Source: Gammaproteobacteria bacterium
Lineage (GTDB): Bacteria > Pseudomonadota > Gammaproteobacteria > Xanthomonadales > Wenzhouxiangellaceae
Assembly (NCBI GenBank): GCA_021772985.1
Contig: JAJFKX010000034.1
Coordinates: 1 to 64,000, forward strand
Length of the DNA: 64,000 nt
Direction: 5' to 3'
Shown here: positions 1 through 8,678 of the stretch, piece by piece
Position numbering within the stretch: position 1 is the first letter of the stretch
Layout: every line of letters starts with the position of its first letter
Notes under the pieces: model-generated
Told to the model about the DNA's origin: nothing
What the model saw: the letters and a program-made list of their open reading frames with translations, nothing else
Database searches by the model: none
Translations under genes and position numbers: made by a program

Positions 1-376
1 ATCCTGGGTCGGCGTGATTAAAACACGCCTTTAACAACCCGAATATATGTCAGCAGACCATTTCTTGATCGGCTATTGGGCAGACAACAATTTAATCAAG
101 AATTGCCCTTGACTGGAGGGAGGCGTCCATATATGTCTATAACTGCTATAGCCAGTATCACACAGGCACGAATGGTTCCGGATAGCATCGTGTTGATCAT
201 TTACCTCCTTTAGATAATGCCACGAGCGGCCGGGTTTTACCCCGTTTTTATTGAATTTGAGATATGGGTATCTCGGCTTTTGTTATTTGTCTGTGTTAAC
301 GGCCTAGCTCATTAAAGTGAGACCAGAAAGGCAAATCGCAATCCTGGTCGGTTATTGCGTGGGAATACACCACTCG
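1..376. other. Left-edge intergenic stretch
   Basis: No convincing long gene lies here. A plus-strand frame open from the window edge stops at about position 33 and could be the last residues of a truncated gene, but ten codons cannot be identified. A short stem (CGGG/CCCG, about 231-244) followed by five Ts on the plus strand is a weak terminator-like signal. A 34-codon minus-strand reading frame with a strong Shine-Dalgarno sequence is listed separately. Confidence 0.5.
96..200 (-). CDS. Possible small hydrophobic protein (34 aa)
   Basis: The start codon at 200 is preceded by AAAGGAGG with a short three-base spacing (complement of 204-211), one of the best Shine-Dalgarno matches in the window. 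The predicted peptide begins MINTMLSGTIRAC and continues with a hydrophobic stretch (VILAIAVIDIY), so it could be a tiny membrane peptide. I do not recognise a family. It lies upstream of and apart from the M36 protease gene. The main argument against it is length: a reading frame of 34 codons is common by chance, and only the ribosome binding site supports it. Confidence 0.22.
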   Translation of the reverse strand: MINTMLSGTIRACVILAIAVIDIYGRLPPVKGNS

Positions 377-2997: not shown

Positions 2998-4494
2998 ATG
3001 AAACGCTTTTTATTCAAGCTACATTTATTGCTCATCAGCCAGCTGCTTGTGCTGCCAGCCATGGCTCAGCATTATCGAATTATCGATGATGCCCAGGGTG
3101 GAGATTGTATCGGGCAACAAATCGGCAACTGGGATGCAGCCACGAAAACCTGCACCCTGACCGCTTCACAACAGGCATCGATCTCAATTGAAGATGATGG
3201 CATTACTCTGGACGGTTCCGGCCTGATGTTGCGTCATGTGGCTGGTGCACGCGGTGTCGGTGTGATGCTGGACGGTCGCAAAAATGTGGTGGTTCGCAAG
3301 CTCCGGGTGTTCGGTTTTTCAGAAGGTGTGGTAATTGTCCAGGGACATTCAAATACCATTCGGGATTGTCACATCAGCGGCCCGACCAGTATGGGCACAG
3401 GCATCACCCTGGATCGTACCAATCAAAATCGGGTCCGAAAAAACACCATCGTTTCAACCAATGGGCGTGGTATCACCCTAAGCAAATCACATCAAAACCG
3501 GTTGACAAAAAATAGCATCCTGCTCAACCCTAAAGGCAGTATTCTGATGTGGGATTCCACCAATAACCTGATTGGCAAAAACACCCTGCGAGGTACTGGT
3601 GCCCGTGGAAGCAACGGCATCAATTTCACCAAAAGCCATCGCAACGAAATCACTGGCAACGAGATTAGCCGGCACAGCCAATATGGCATTGTGTTTAACA
3701 AATCGAATAATAACCGAATTTATTTCAACAACATTCTGAACAACGACCAGAACAGTTTTTTCCTCTGGGACGGCAATCACAATTTACTGTTTTGTAATGA
3801 CTTTCAGGGTCACATCGATGGCGTAGAATTACTGGGTGCTGCAGTCGGTAACCAGACTTGGTGGAATAACTTTCTATTGACCGACTCCGCCATCGACCTG
3901 GTGGGAGCACGCCTCAACCAATTCCAGCACCCCAGGCCCGAAGGCGGCAACTACTGGAAAATCAACGCCGCCAACTGTGTTGATGCCAACGGCGACCGAT
4001 TTTGCGATGGGCCTTATCTGTTCCGTGGCAACCAGGACGACTTGCCGCAGGTTAATCCAATTCCATGGGTTAATAACCCAGCAGTCTGCCTGGCACCTGC
4101 TGAAATTGTAACAGGCTATGAAGTACCACCTGAGAGTTTGCAATGGGATAGCACCGTGGCAGGTTTGGTGCAGTTGTTTGATACTGCTGTGATGGAAGCA
4201 AAGCCGCAGATGTTGCTTCCAAACCTGGCCAATGACATCACATTGATCACAGATAATAAAACCTTCACAGGAACCAATACAGTACTCGCAGAATTGGAAA
4301 CTTTGCTGAAATGCCCTGAAGGCACACCAACACTTCAAGTGATATCAAGCCAACCGGATGTTGATCCCGCAGTGATCGAATTTTACATCAAACGATGCAG
4401 CCATAAGCCTATGCGCCTTGCGATGGTGTCACGCATTCGATCAGGCTCGGGTGAACGAGAGGTGACATCCATTATCATTGCAAGGTCGTACTAA
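2998..4494 (+). CDS. Secreted NosD-like right-handed beta-helix protein
   Basis: The protein has 498 residues with a clear signal peptide (MKRFLFKLHLLLISQLL, cleavage after AMA). Residues about 75-300 carry serial NosD/PbH1-type repeats of the pattern N-x-I/V-x-x-N-x-I/L (for example HRNEITGNEIS and NNRIYFNNILNN), typical of periplasmic or surface beta-helix proteins. The C-terminal 120 residues (from about 375) are not beta-helix; they look like a small alpha/beta domain of uncertain type. GAAGG just before the ATG gives a ribosome binding site. No nos genes (nosZ, nosF, nosY) are nearby, so a role in nitrous oxide reductase maturation is unlikely. Only 38 bases separate it from the binding-protein gene, so co-transcription is plausible. 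Function is unknown; carbohydrate or polymer binding is a guess. Confidence 0.75.
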   Translation: MKRFLFKLHLLLISQLLVLPAMAQHYRIIDDAQGGDCIGQQIGNWDAATKTCTLTASQQASISIEDDGITLDGSGLMLRHVAGARGVGVMLDGRKNVVVRKLRVFGFSEGVVIVQGHSNTIRDCHISGPTSMGTGITLDRTNQNRVRKNTIVSTNGRGITLSKSHQNRLTKNSILLNPKGSILMWDSTNNLIGKNTLRGTGARGSNGINFTKSHRNEITGNEISRHSQYGIVFNKSNNNRIYFNNILNNDQNSFFLWDGNHNLLFCNDFQGHIDGVELLGAAVGNQTWWNNFLLTDSAIDLVGARLNQFQHPRPEGGNYWKINAANCVDANGDRFCDGPYLFRGNQDDLPQVNPIPWVNNPAVCLAPAEIVTGYEVPPESLQWDSTVAGLVQLFDTAVMEAKPQMLLPNLANDITLITDNKTFTGTNTVLAELETLLKCPEGTPTLQVISSQPDVDPAVIEFYIKRCSHKPMRLAMVSRIRSGSGEREVTSIIIARSY

Positions 4495-4532: not shown

Positions 4533-5699
4533 ATGCAAATTACATTTACCAAGGTTGCTGCGCGCATCGCAATAGCTTTAATGCTTCTGTCACTACCGGC
4601 TCTGGCCGAAGTCGGTGTCTATAACGATCACATTGTCTTTGGTCAATCAGCAGTCCTTGAAGGCCCAGCAGCGGCGCTTGGCCGGGGTGTTCGAGACGGC
4701 ATTCTCGCTGCATTCGAAGAAGCAAATGAGACCGGAGGTGTGCATGGTCGCAAACTTGATCTATTGGTCCTTGATGATGGCTACGAACCAGAGAGAGCTA
4801 TTACCAATGTTAATCGATTGATCGATGTCGATAAGGTATTTGCGATTATCGGCGAGGTTGGGACGCCAACATCACGCGCGGTACAACCGATCACAACCGA
4901 GGTTGGAGTACCCTTTTTTGGCCCTTTCACAGGTGCTGAATTTTTACGTAACCCCGCCCTTGAGAATGTCATTAATGTCCGCGCGTCTTACAACCAAGAG
5001 ACCGAAGCCTGGGGTAAATATCTTGTAGATTCTCTAGGCTTCAACCGCATCGCCGTGCTCTATCAAGATGATTCCTTTGGTCGAGCCGGCCTCGAGGGTT
5101 TGCGCAATACCTTAACCAAACGTGGTTTGGAGCTGGTCGCCGAAGGCACTTATATGCGCAACACAACCGCAGTAAAACGCGGGCTGCTTGAGATCCGTAA
5201 AGCTAAACCACAGGCTGTGGCCATTGTCGGTGCGTACGAACCCAGCGCAGAATTTATCCGCATAGCACGCGGGCTCAGCATGGACCCTGTTTTCATCAAT
5301 ATCTCATTTGTCGGAAGTGAGGCTTTGGCCGAAGAACTTGGTGCTGACGGTAAAGGGGTCATCATAAGTCAGGTTGTGCCTCTGCCTGACGATAGCTCAG
5401 TACCAGTGGTGGCTAACTATAACCGAGCCATTAAAGCACTTAACCCTGGGTTAAAGCCAAGTTTCGTATCACTCGAGGGTTACATTCTTGGGCGGCTGGT
5501 TATCGCCGCCCTGGAAGCCTCGGGGCCTGAAGTGACCCGACAGAGCTTACTGGCAACCATCAGAAATATCGGCCAATTCAATCTTGAAGGCATACAGATG
5601 AACTTCGGCCCAGATGACAACCAAGGCATGGATGATGTTTTTCTCACCGTACTCAATAATAATGGTCACTTTGATGCCGTAGAGTTTGTTGATAATTAG
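4533..5699 (+). CDS. Periplasmic ligand-binding protein, Leu/Ile/Val-binding (Peripla_BP_6) type
   Basis: 388 residues with a signal peptide (MQITFTKVAARIAIALMLL, cleavage near LALAE). The mature part begins with the classic type I binding-protein strand (IVFGQSAVLEGPAAALGRG). It continues with ETGGVHGRKLDLLVLDDGYEP, VFAIIGEVGTPTSRA and the hinge-region RIAVLYQDDSFGRAG, all hallmarks of the LivJ/AmiC fold. In transport operons such a gene sits with permease and ATPase genes. None is present here: the next gene, 36 bases downstream, encodes a membrane adenylate cyclase. The context therefore suggests that it presents a ligand to the cyclase sensor domain, as TorT does for TorS, instead of feeding a transporter. 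The ligand cannot be read from sequence; branched amino acids, amides or other small polar molecules are all possible. Confidence 0.85.
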   Translation: MQITFTKVAARIAIALMLLSLPALAEVGVYNDHIVFGQSAVLEGPAAALGRGVRDGILAAFEEANETGGVHGRKLDLLVLDDGYEPERAITNVNRLIDVDKVFAIIGEVGTPTSRAVQPITTEVGVPFFGPFTGAEFLRNPALENVINVRASYNQETEAWGKYLVDSLGFNRIAVLYQDDSFGRAGLEGLRNTLTKRGLELVAEGTYMRNTTAVKRGLLEIRKAKPQAVAIVGAYEPSAEFIRIARGLSMDPVFINISFVGSEALAEELGADGKGVIISQVVPLPDDSSVPVVANYNRAIKALNPGLKPSFVSLEGYILGRLVIAALEASGPEVTRQSLLATIRNIGQFNLEGIQMNFGPDDNQGMDDVFLTVLNNNGHFDAVEFVDN

Positions 5700-5735
5700 A
5701 CGCTTGGTATTATTGCTGACAGCCTTTATCAAACA

Positions 5736-8678
5736 ATGGATCACACAGATAGCGCAATAAGGTACAAATACCTCGGAAACAAACAGCCTTGGTATCGCTC
5801 TTTAGGTATCAGAGCAAAACTCTTTATCGCCTTTTCTGGGTTCGCCGGACTTACAGTTATCGCCAGTTTGGTGGCCTGGTTGGTTTTTGTCATTATCGAG
5901 CAATCCGTTGATCAGGTCACTCAAAAAAGCATGCCCGGTATGGTCGATGCTCTGGCGCTGTCTAAGAAAGTGGCTGATATCGCGGCCGCTGCACCGATGC
6001 TGGCTACCAGTAACAGCCACGAAAAACTCGCTGAGGAGCAAGCCACACTTGCCAAGGATTTGCAGCAATTTGTAAACGTTTCCCAGTCGCTTGCTCAAAC
6101 CAGCAAAATCGATCAACGACAACAACAGATAGGGCCTGTCGCTGCTGAGCTTGAGATGCAACTCAGCGCGCTTGGTTCGATCGTTAGCCAACGCCTGGAC
6201 TTACAGCATAAGAGGCAAGTCAAAACGGCGGCCGTGCAGACTGCTCATGCACGCTTCAACGAAGCCTTAGAGCCATTAATCGACGATGCCGTTTTCAACC
6301 TCGTGATTAGTGGCGAAAAAGTAATGCTCAATAATTCGACATCGATTACCAGACTGGTCGAAAATGGGGTGAGCGGCATTGATGCGTTACTGTCTATTAA
6401 TGCTGCTACAAACCTTGCTGCTGGTCTAATCGCTGAAGCGGTTGTGGTTATCGATCCGATCCGACTGGAACCATTAAAAGAGCGCTTTCTTTCAGCCGCA
6501 CTCATGATCGACCGGAATATAGCTAAGCTGCCCGATAACCCACGTACGCTAGCGTTGCGAAGAGCGAGTAATAGCCTACTTGACCTGGGGCTTGACCATA
6601 CCTCTGTATTCACTGCTCCTGCAGGGCAACAGTTAGCAAGAGATTCAGCAGCCGATCGGCAAGTATTAGATAACCGGCATAACCAACTACTTCTGCTTTT
6701 AACGCCAATGATTGACGACGCCACTTTTGATTTAGTAATGGCAACTGAACAAGTGACCACACATAGCGAAGCAGCAATTTCCGGATTGATCGAAGGCAAT
6801 GTCAATACGCTCAGCCTGGTGCTCACTATTCGCGCTGAAGGCAATCTTGCCGCCAGTTTATTAAGTGAAGCCGCGAGCTTAAGTAACGACGCACTGTTTA
6901 CACCATTACAAGATCGTTTTATCGCCACCAAAGCACGCATTGCAACACTTCTGCCACGGGCTAAAGCTGCTATATACTATGATGAATTGAATAAGGTTCT
7001 GGAGACTCTATTGACGCTAGGTGGAGGCACGGAGAGCCTCTTCAAGCTGCGCCGCGATGAACTGGAAGCGCAGAAAATAGCCCAAACCACACTTGACTCT
7101 AGCCGGGCCCATGCTTTGCAACTTAGTGATCTGGTTGCGGAAATTGTCGCCCAGGCCCAGACATCGAGTGACTCTGCATCTGCCCACTCTAAGCAAGCTA
7201 TTGATACCGGACAAATAATTTTGATCTTAATTACACTAGCGGGGTTGGTTGGCGCTACTGTTGCAATGTTTGTCTATGTTGGCCCAAAGGTAATCCAACC
7301 AATCAGCCGGATTACAACTGCAATGACTGAGCTCTCGGATGGTGACACCAGTATTGATATTCCAGCACGCAATCGCAAAGATGAATTGGGCGAGATGGCC
7401 AGAGCCTTGGGTGTTTTTCGGGACAATGCGGTCGCCGTCCGAAAAGCTAACCTGGAGGAGATTCAAAGCACGCGTCGCCGCTTGGCCGAAGCAATTGAAA
7501 GTATCAACGAAGGTTTTTGCTTCTATGACGCCAATGATCAGTTGGTGGTCTGCAATAGTCGTTACCAGGAACTACTTTACCCTGGGATAGATCACGCCCT
7601 TGAACCAGGCACAACATTTGAGTCTGTCATCCGGCACACGGTATCGTTGGGATTAGCTGTAGAGGCTCAAGGCGATGAAGAGGCATGGGTTGCCCAGCGT
7701 CTAGCGAAACATCATGAAGCCGGATCACCACATGTGCAACAGCGCGCGAACGGCCGCTATTTGATGATCAGCGAGCGTAAAACCGAAGACGGCGGTACAG
7801 TCGGCGTTTATTCCGACATAACAGAACTCAAACAGCGCGAAACAGAACTTGGAAAAAAATCAGGTGAGTTGGAGCGCATTGCCAATCAGTTATCCAAGTA
7901 TCTATCTCCACAGGTGTACGAATCGATCTTTACCGGTCGACAAGAGGTCAAAGTCGAGAGCCAGCGGAAGAAGTTAACCGTATTCTTCTCTGACATCGCT
8001 GACTTCACCGAAACCGCTGAAAAGCTACAATCTGAAGACCTGACTTTCCTGCTCAATGAATACCTCACAGAGATGTCAAAAATTGCTCAGGACTATGCTG
8101 CGACGATAGACAAATACGTCGGTGACGCTATCGTGATTTTCTTCGGCGACCCCGAAACTCGAGGCGTTCAAGAAGATGCTATCAGCTGTGTTGAAATGGC
8201 CATAGCAATGCGTTGCAGAATGGATGAGTTACGAAAAATATGGCGGGACCGAGGCATTGAAGATCCATTAGAATGCCGCATGGGCATTAATACCGGCTAT
8301 TGCACGGTGGGTAACTTCGGTAGCGAATCTCGAATGGATTACACCATTATCGGTGCAGGTGTGAACTTGGCTTCCCGTCTTGAAACAGCCGCTGCACGCA
8401 GCGAAATCCTCATTTCTTACGAAACTTACGCCCTGGTCAAGCGCTGTGTTTCATGTGAGCAACGAGCACCCATTAACGTCAAAGGAATCAATCGACCGGT
8501 TGCAACTTTCCAGGTTATTGATCTGATTGATAACCTGCAAGCGGAAAACCAAAAAGTGCACGCAGAGCACCTCAATCTTCGTTTAGAAATGAACCCTACA
8601 GCTATGTCTAAGCCTGAGCGTGCCGAGGCAGAGAAAGCACTGCGTCAAGCACTGGACAATTTGACCTCAAAGACTTAG
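5736..8678 (+). CDS. Membrane adenylate cyclase: duplicated periplasmic sensor, HAMP, PAS, class III cyclase
   Basis: 980 residues. The first membrane helix is about residues 29-56, then a helical periplasmic region of some 430 residues. That region contains an internal repeat: PLIDDAVFNLV near residue 180 recurs as PMIDDATFDLV 144 residues later, each followed by an NLAA-containing helix and an F-L/I-x-A helix. The second membrane helix is about 493-517, HAMP about 515-567, a PAS-like domain about 580-690 (INEGFCFYDANDQLVVCNSRY), then the cyclase domain about 740-930. The cyclase has both metal-binding aspartates (FFSDIADF, KYVGDAIV), the adenine-selecting Lys and Asp (DKYVGD, MDYTIIG), and the transition-state Asn and Arg (NLASRLE), so it should make cAMP. 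The duplicated helical sensor next to a type I binding protein resembles TorS with TorT, with the kinase replaced by a cyclase. That functional link is inference. Confidence 0.88.
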   Translation: MDHTDSAIRYKYLGNKQPWYRSLGIRAKLFIAFSGFAGLTVIASLVAWLVFVIIEQSVDQVTQKSMPGMVDALALSKKVADIAAAAPMLATSNSHEKLAEEQATLAKDLQQFVNVSQSLAQTSKIDQRQQQIGPVAAELEMQLSALGSIVSQRLDLQHKRQVKTAAVQTAHARFNEALEPLIDDAVFNLVISGEKVMLNNSTSITRLVENGVSGIDALLSINAATNLAAGLIAEAVVVIDPIRLEPLKERFLSAALMIDRNIAKLPDNPRTLALRRASNSLLDLGLDHTSVFTAPAGQQLARDSAADRQVLDNRHNQLLLLLTPMIDDATFDLVMATEQVTTHSEAAISGLIEGNVNTLSLVLTIRAEGNLAASLLSEAASLSNDALFTPLQDRFIATKARIATLLPRAKAAIYYDELNKVLETLLTLGGGTESLFKLRRDELEAQKIAQTTLDSSRAHALQLSDLVAEIVAQAQTSSDSASAHSKQAIDTGQIILILITLAGLVGATVAMFVYVGPKVIQPISRITTAMTELSDGDTSIDIPARNRKDELGEMARALGVFRDNAVAVRKANLEEIQSTRRRLAEAIESINEGFCFYDANDQLVVCNSRYQELLYPGIDHALEPGTTFESVIRHTVSLGLAVEAQGDEEAWVAQRLAKHHEAGSPHVQQRANGRYLMISERKTEDGGTVGVYSDITELKQRETELGKKSGELERIANQLSKYLSPQVYESIFTGRQEVKVESQRKKLTVFFSDIADFTETAEKLQSEDLTFLLNEYLTEMSKIAQDYAATIDKYVGDAIVIFFGDPETRGVQEDAISCVEMAIAMRCRMDELRKIWRDRGIEDPLECRMGINTGYCTVGNFGSESRMDYTIIGAGVNLASRLETAAARSEILISYETYALVKRCVSCEQRAPINVKGINRPVATFQVIDLIDNLQAENQKVHAEHLNLRLEMNPTAMSKPERAEAEKALRQALDNLTSKT

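Follow-up and report, generated by a model that had tools for sequence, protein, structure and literature searches.

In the TorT/TorS system, by which E. coli and Vibrio sense trimethylamine N-oxide, a periplasmic solute-binding protein (SBP) works together with a sensor whose all-helical ectodomain consists of stacked bundles, and the output is a histidine kinase feeding a phosphorelay. In the NspS-MbaA system a polyamine-sensing SBP controls a membrane-bound cyclic di-GMP (c-di-GMP) enzyme. Here we analyse two adjoining genes in a 64,000-nucleotide stretch of a Wenzhouxiangellaceae genome (GCA_021772985.1, contig JAJFKX010000034.1), termed the window, in which an SBP gene precedes a gene with a TorS-like ectodomain and, where TorS has its kinase, a class III adenylate cyclase (Guanylate_cyc) domain. 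With a probability of roughly 0.75 we read the two genes as one SBP-gated receptor adenylate cyclase in two pieces, TorT/TorS-like in design with cyclic AMP (cAMP) as output; from NspS-MbaA it differs in SBP, sensor and messenger. TorS itself is described as two stacked four-helix bundles undergoing piston-like motion (accessible text of PMC8534201). Where the accessible parts of two articles enumerate the kinds of receptor that SBPs activate, chemoreceptors, sensor kinases, c-di-GMP enzymes and Ser/Thr kinases appear and adenylate cyclases do not (PMC9602780, PMC11113362); our literature search, in which subscription journals were thinly covered so that absence is unproven, recognised no description of an SBP-driven adenylate cyclase.

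The pair spans positions 4533-8678 of the window on the + strand, and all coordinates given for it are those of the window. The first-pass annotation, made from the letters alone, had placed an SBP gene here followed after 36 bases by a cyclase gene, and both open reading frames (ORFs) lie on the same strand exactly at the positions it gave. A scan for promoters and terminators returned no more sites than were found in shuffled sequences. The SBP matches Peripla_BP_6 and LivJ-type models in Pfam and NCBIfam as well as the Pfam model ANF_receptor (1.5e-18); its nearest solved structure is 4kv7, and the full two-lobe fold is kept. The likeness to TorT that had been proposed for it did not hold, as the protein belongs to the Leu-binding family and no TorT model occurs among its listed Pfam and NCBIfam matches. 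Its first-lobe motifs GTPTS and GPFTGA differ from their counterparts in the alignment with 3ipc, an amino-acid binder, so that a plain amino acid is not assured as its ligand.

The ectodomain of the second protein is homologous to TorS. With a profile of 12 sensors the best solved relative was TorS (3i9y/3o1h), at an E-value of 2e-11 and over residues 5-272 of the 276-residue construct. Independently of the profile, the AlphaFold model aligned best to the TorS chains of the TorS-TorT complex (3o1i), with a Z-score of 19.5 and a root-mean-square deviation of 3.3 over 269 of 270 residues (model residues 66-475); as a yardstick, the typical best Z was 14 for five largely helical models that matched nothing clearly. 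Profile and structure alignment thus confirm what had been a guess in the first-pass annotation. Taken alone, the window protein reaches 26.9 bits against a cut-off of 27 with Pfam TorS_sensor_domain (4.1e-6) and 111.5 bits with the NCBIfam TorS model TIGR02956 (3.4e-32), far below the equivalog cut-off of 676.5, and a related Ensifer sensor is collinear with positions 1-420 of the TorS model (8.1e-27, below cut-off). The fold matches of the window model also included 8f7n (Foldseek E 3.4e-6), which we take to be the periplasmic domain of the S. meliloti chemoreceptor McpZ with its three concatenated helical bundles; McpZ was not among the matches of the sequence profile, and its output is chemotaxis, unlike that of the window cyclase.

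About 140 model residues fall outside the TorS alignment, the size of an extra bundle, which gives the window ectodomain one bundle more than TorS. The ectodomain comprises about 430 residues bounded by the hydrophobic windows 27-59 and 487-517, and a weaker hydrophobic window (221-239) falls within a repeat helix. An internal repeat with a spacing of 144 residues had been noticed by eye, its motifs starting at residues 180 and 324; hhalign with 15 related long sensors bore this out, pairing residues 177-301 and 321-444 across 124 columns with 31% identity (E 1.2e-36, probability 99.9%), as against a probability of 0.5% when the HAMP region was taken for comparison. Since the duplication is common to sensors of other genomes, it is older than the window genome. 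According to the alignment, members from Ensifer, Sinorhizobium and Competibacteraceae lack one repeat copy. The extra bundle is not essential for SBP pairing, because one locus (L303) combines an SBP 52% identical to that of the window with a short sensor. Together with the histidine kinases L196-L198, which have window-type SBPs and short sensors, L303 led us to reject both that the extra bundle is required for docking and that the type of SBP tracks sensor length.

By its sequence the second gene encodes a class III adenylate cyclase whose catalytic site is complete and of the adenylate type. Pfam recovered the HAMP, PAS and intact adenylate-selective cyclase regions that had been annotated, the Guanylate_cyc domain scoring 89.9 bits against a cut-off of 21.9. 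Residues D753, D797, K793, D868, N877 and R881 are invariant in 10/10 aligned cores; we take D753 and D797 to be the metal-binding, K793 and D868 the adenine-selecting, and N877 and R881 the transition-state residues of class III adenylate cyclases. The nearest solved catalytic domain is that of P. aeruginosa adenylyl cyclase CyaB (3r5g), with 54-63% identity depending on aligner and chain. The likeness to CyaB is one of catalytic domains: CyaB carries a membrane MASE2 module instead of a periplasmic sensor and is not known to have an SBP partner. Class III domains can also make cyclic GMP or cyclic UMP, so the pair could be real with an output that is inactive or a different cyclic nucleotide; with all six positions, including the adenine-selecting Lys-Asp pair, invariant in the ten cores, and an adenylyl cyclase as nearest solved relative, we regard this as very improbable. 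The window genome contains one other Guanylate_cyc domain (L134, G000:C6:75365-75886), on a protein of 728 residues whose N-terminal part is presumably CHASE2-like, judging by a motif, and no upstream SBP was recognised for it with our own hidden Markov models (HMMs).

These home-made HMMs served to assign SBP and output classes in the surveys of loci. They were built from single sequences for SBP_bac_1, SBP_bac_3, NMT1 and TAXI, from two seeds each for DctP and the histidine kinase, four for the chemoreceptor, five each for the periplasmic binding protein (PBP) and the catalytic domain, ten for the core and twelve for the sensor. Related loci were collected with the cyclase alone (64 loci among the matches listed, from genome contigs), by a cyclase search of plasmids, and with sensor and core profiles; the SBP sequence was not used as a query. 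The genome searches scored few candidates per genome, hence counts are counts among the matches listed, and the plasmid records examined individually were L094 and L095.

An SBP gene next to a receptor with a periplasmic sensor, the arrangement expected of SBP-activated receptors, was found directly upstream and on the same strand in 22/22 examined membrane-sensor cyclases with the PAS_7-cyclase core (12/12 and 10/10 in two sets). The pair thus recurs in other genomes, where its presence had been named as a check and its lack of conservation as a refutation of the original proposal. The SBP was of the Peripla_BP_6 kind in 19 cases, all confirmed by Pfam and all matching ANF_receptor at 1e-10 or better, and in five of these 19 pairs the two genes overlap by four bases. 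The remaining three are one SBP_bac_1 (L034), one NMT1 (L293) and one NMT1_3/TAXI (L294) protein, the L294 cyclase being without a TorS-like sensor but with two hydrophobic segments. Two Bradyrhizobium loci and a Sphingomicrobium locus have an upstream SBP about 63% identical to that of the window; to PF25495 the Bradyrhizobium SBP shows no more than a faint match (E 0.047). A Competibacteraceae locus (L032) has a divergent Peripla_BP_6 protein upstream, and the gammaproteobacterial L034 holds its SBP_bac_1 protein in the same slot.

Several loci deserve mention in their own right. In one genome (G459, contigs C72, C47, C481 and C641; L293, L294, L194 and L295) four SBP-cyclase pairs occur that use three SBP families, Peripla_BP_6 twice, NMT1 and TAXI. 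Another pair lies on the symbiotic megaplasmid pSymA of the model symbiont S. meliloti 1021 (L094, record 303586-314980) and occurs on further Sinorhizobium plasmids as well. One broken copy, recorded twice (L033 = L296, G655:C141) and left out of the 22, has an SBP fragment, a sensor fragment and the cyclase core in separate frames, which reflects either gene decay or an assembly error.

Among class III cyclases without the sensor, an upstream SBP was recognised with the HMMs in 0/82 and 0/35 cases. The first group of controls comprises cyclase-search and profile-search loci plus the window genome's own second cyclase, with seven loci left out for short flanks, and the second comprises later profile-search loci, with 10 left out for having the sensor and 15 for short flanks; 49 of the 117 controls, all within the 82, come from one mostly Acinetobacter block (L044-L092). 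An upstream ORF of at least 150 residues was present in 60/117 controls and none was in range for the other 57. Pfam was run on 43 of these 60 ORFs and reported 37 families, and the 25 of them that were listed include no SBP. In proteins that share the core and have no hydrophobic segments (L304-L308) an SBP was likewise recognised in 0/5 cases. On these control counts chance adjacency was rejected. The HMMs do miss some SBPs: at L315 (G317:C10:311500-318500), a cyclase with a HAMP-like match and without PAS_7, neither they nor Pfam at 1e-3 picked up the amino-acid SBP that lies 12 bases upstream, a further type of input; solely the comparison with solved structures revealed it (4z9n, 5.4e-67). 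SBP pairing therefore extends past the PAS_7 core, yet it is not general among HAMP cyclases, as set out below.

Peripla_BP_6 is mostly a transporter family, and the SBP might accordingly serve ordinary transport, or be an orphan scavenger, with its gene placed by circumstance in one operon with that of a cyclase which senses something else directly through its helical bundle. The Ensifer SBP of a related pair is indeed close to LivJ-type proteins (NF011933, 1.6e-97, under cut-off). The first-pass annotation had seen no transporter genes beside the pair, in line with the neighbouring ORFs (4 proteins Pfam-scanned), and had named a distant livHMGF-type transporter as a finding that would speak against it. 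A genome-wide search of the window genome (98.5% complete) for the LivHM-type permease family BPD_transp_2 gave 0 matches, and the same family was found in 12/14 reference genomes as positive control. Of the parts that define a LIV/HAAT ATP-binding cassette transporter, the Peripla_BP_6 SBP is thus present and the LivHM-type permease was not found, so a distant Liv transporter was rejected as user of the SBP. The only other Peripla_BP_6 match in this genome is barely above cut-off and lies within a 666-residue open frame. Given also the contrast between 22/22 sensor cyclases and none recognised in 117 controls, and the fact that several SBP families fill the slot, we consider a transport or scavenging role unlikely.

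A number of observations nevertheless weigh against the two-piece receptor, and some of them speak for the transport alternative as well. In the accessible text of PMC11113362, adjacency by itself is no proof that an SBP and a receptor are linked: the sensor domains of two P. aeruginosa kinases were not bound by the neighbouring SBPs in the tests made, and a link between the adjoining SBP and kinase genes was not borne out. Six cyclases (L315-L319, L043) have HAMP and a periplasmic loop and lack PAS_7; in five of them no SBP was recognised. These two points led us to lower our confidence from 0.8 to the value given above. Among chemoreceptors of the same sensor family Peripla_BP_6 lies directly upstream in only 13/44, leaving 31/44 without a recognised upstream SBP. 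The 22 cases are not independent: one family (f61) supplies 9 of them and one genome 4, 2 are Ensifer/Sinorhizobium plasmids, and L029 is nearly a copy of L031. The search profiles were themselves built from SBP-adjacent members. Pairwise distances correlate between PBP and sensor (r 0.90), but also between PBP and core (r 0.79) and between sensor and core (r 0.94), a pattern of linked genes; the mirror-tree (Mantel) test, run without L194 and L295, was for this reason discarded as uninformative on pairing. The cyclase model is modest, with a mean predicted local distance difference test (pLDDT) score of 62.7, the ectodomain blocks lying mostly at 70-93 with dips to 40-66. On the output side, none of the three Crp/Fnr-type proteins of the window genome comes near the CRP equivalog cut-off, and Fnr is the best match for two; a CRP ortholog at cut-off was sought among these three and not found.

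The sensor family also occurs with other outputs. Of 23 histidine kinases with such a sensor 13 have an upstream SBP, 11 by the gap rule and two (L199, L233) outside that count because the SBP overlaps the called kinase start by 450 and 180 bases; one further kinase (L202) has a DctP gene 20 bases downstream. The SBPs of these kinases belong to Peripla_BP_6, DctP and SBP_bac_3 (Pfam for L127, L129, L130, L202 and L203). The chemoreceptors with Peripla_BP_6 directly upstream (L126, L136, L137, L139-L141, L207, L209, L214, L219, L222, L223 and L227) are candidate SBP-dependent chemoreceptors. At a further locus (L213, G302:C10:125000-142000) three chemoreceptor genes of the sensor family stand in a row with no recognised SBP adjoining.

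A quick tree of 39 SBPs, from which the incomplete rows L167 and L194 were left out and to which L199 and L233 contributed no pair, falls into two groups split by a very long branch. One holds the partners of 9 cyclases and 1 kinase, the other those of 13 chemoreceptors, 9 cyclases and 5 kinases and 2 unassigned ones. The cyclase label needs 4 changes on this quick tree, of which the starred branches force at least 2. The window pair was compared with seven members of the other SBP group, of which two are Ensifer/Sinorhizobium plasmid copies and five belong to one family; identity is 53-57% in the core, 22-24% in the SBP and 18-20% in the sensor. The core is thus conserved while SBPs and sensors diverge, indicating that input module and output core were recombined and that each combination includes an SBP. 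With related cyclases we found SBPs of the Peripla_BP_6, SBP_bac_1, NMT1, TAXI and amino-acid SBP kinds. Taken together we think it fairly likely, although less so than for the window pair itself, that in Proteobacteria two-piece receptor adenylate cyclases form an entire class, their ligand specificity residing on a separate, swappable SBP, different families having been plugged in and the coupling having arisen or been exchanged more than once; this estimate was lowered slightly for the same two reasons, the P. aeruginosa pairs without binding and the HAMP cyclases.

Among 398 genomes of the phylum at least 3 have a cyclase with sensor, HAMP and PAS; besides the window genome these are two that belong to a single family. 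For 369 Gammaproteobacteria, none of the further matches listed had a comparable extent over the long sensor. SBP matches occurred in 17 of 60 relatives of the window genome, none above 34% identity among the matches listed; a relative from the same order (L006/L023, G040:C37:35903-38195) has two related Peripla_BP_6 matches in tandem. Full pairs nearest to that of the window come from Alphaproteobacteria, a distribution suggestive of horizontal acquisition. A blastn search with the Ensifer pair hit 97 plasmid records; in 53 of them a single stretch covers 80% or more of the pair, and 60 of the 97 are Sinorhizobium by the first word of the organism name.

Following the analogy with TorT/TorS, the exported SBP would close on a small solute and dock onto the TorS-like ectodomain of a cyclase dimer. 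Docking or ligand binding would alter how the helical bundles pack and how high they stand, and the movement might be passed through the second transmembrane helix (TM2), HAMP and the PAS/coiled-coil linker to change the activity of the paired class III cyclase domains. An outside solute could thereby set the level of cAMP, the ligand switching the enzyme either on or off. Physical contact of the two proteins, the direction of control, the identity of the ligand and a cAMP-dependent response are the elements of this scheme that we infer. Alternatively, the SBP may be mainly a structural or inhibitory partner, with the input coming from elsewhere (membrane state, pH, or an apo-cytochrome in the way TorC acts on TorS) and the ligand being secondary. 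TorS is reportedly inhibited by apo-TorC at its periplasmic region, according to the accessible text of PMC8534201, and the departure of the SBP motifs from those of 3ipc would fit such a role; the intact two-lobe fold and the different SBP families in the same slot fit a swapping of ligand specificity better, and we hold a mainly structural or inhibitory role to be quite unlikely.

The receptor cyclase proposed here is TorT/TorS-like in its working, yet it is no member of that system, as we tested for both a kinase output and TorT and found neither: the output domain is a cyclase and the SBP a Peripla_BP_6 protein. A Venus-flytrap domain within the class III cyclase chain is described for trypanosome receptor adenylate cyclases and the natriuretic-peptide receptor (accessible text of PMC6027212), whereas in the window pair the SBP is a separate protein proposed to act via the helical sensor. 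Positions of all parts are collected in Table 1. Upstream, a NosD/right-handed beta-helix protein (Pfam; 2998-4494, + strand) ends 38 bases before the SBP gene, and an exported-looking protein of 780 residues with a HEWGH motif, metalloprotease-like by eye, is encoded at 377-2719 on the - strand.

Table 1. Parts of the SBP-cyclase pair, in window coordinates.
Feature	Position	Strand	Basis or remark
SBP, 388 residues, type I periplasmic binding protein fold	4533..5699	+	Peripla_BP_6 1.1e-61; proposed ligand receptor of the cyclase
Signal-peptide-like N-terminus, residues 1-25 (...LSLPALA)	4533..4607	+	read by eye from translation
Intergenic gap, 36 bases	5700..5735	+	scan lists no terminator-like site
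Receptor adenylate cyclase (predicted), 980 residues: TM1 - helical ectodomain - TM2 - HAMP - PAS_7 - class III cyclase	5736..8678	+	
TM1, residues 27-59	5814..5912	+	hydropathy
Helical ectodomain, residues 60-486, TorS-like plus one extra bundle	5913..7193	+	profile, model, structure alignment
Part matching Pfam TorS_sensor_domain, residues 66-174	5931..6257	+	Pfam
Helical repeat unit 1, residues 177-301	6264..6638	+	hhalign E 1.2e-36
Helical repeat unit 2, residues 321-444	6696..7067	+	hhalign E 1.2e-36
TM2, residues 487-517	7194..7286	+	hydropathy
HAMP, residues 519-564	7290..7427	+	Pfam PF00672 1.5e-10
PAS_7, residues 587-702	7494..7841	+	Pfam PF12860 1.5e-22
Class III cyclase catalytic domain, residues 743-927, all six catalytic positions present	7962..8516	+	Pfam PF00211 2e-25

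If the two genes do form one receptor, adenylate cyclases would join the outputs that SBPs can drive, and the pair would be a split bacterial counterpart of the flytrap-cyclase receptors of animals and trypanosomes. cAMP would then report specific outside solutes via interchangeable SBPs, also in plant symbionts such as Sinorhizobium, and each SBP gene would provide a handle for finding the signal of its cyclase.

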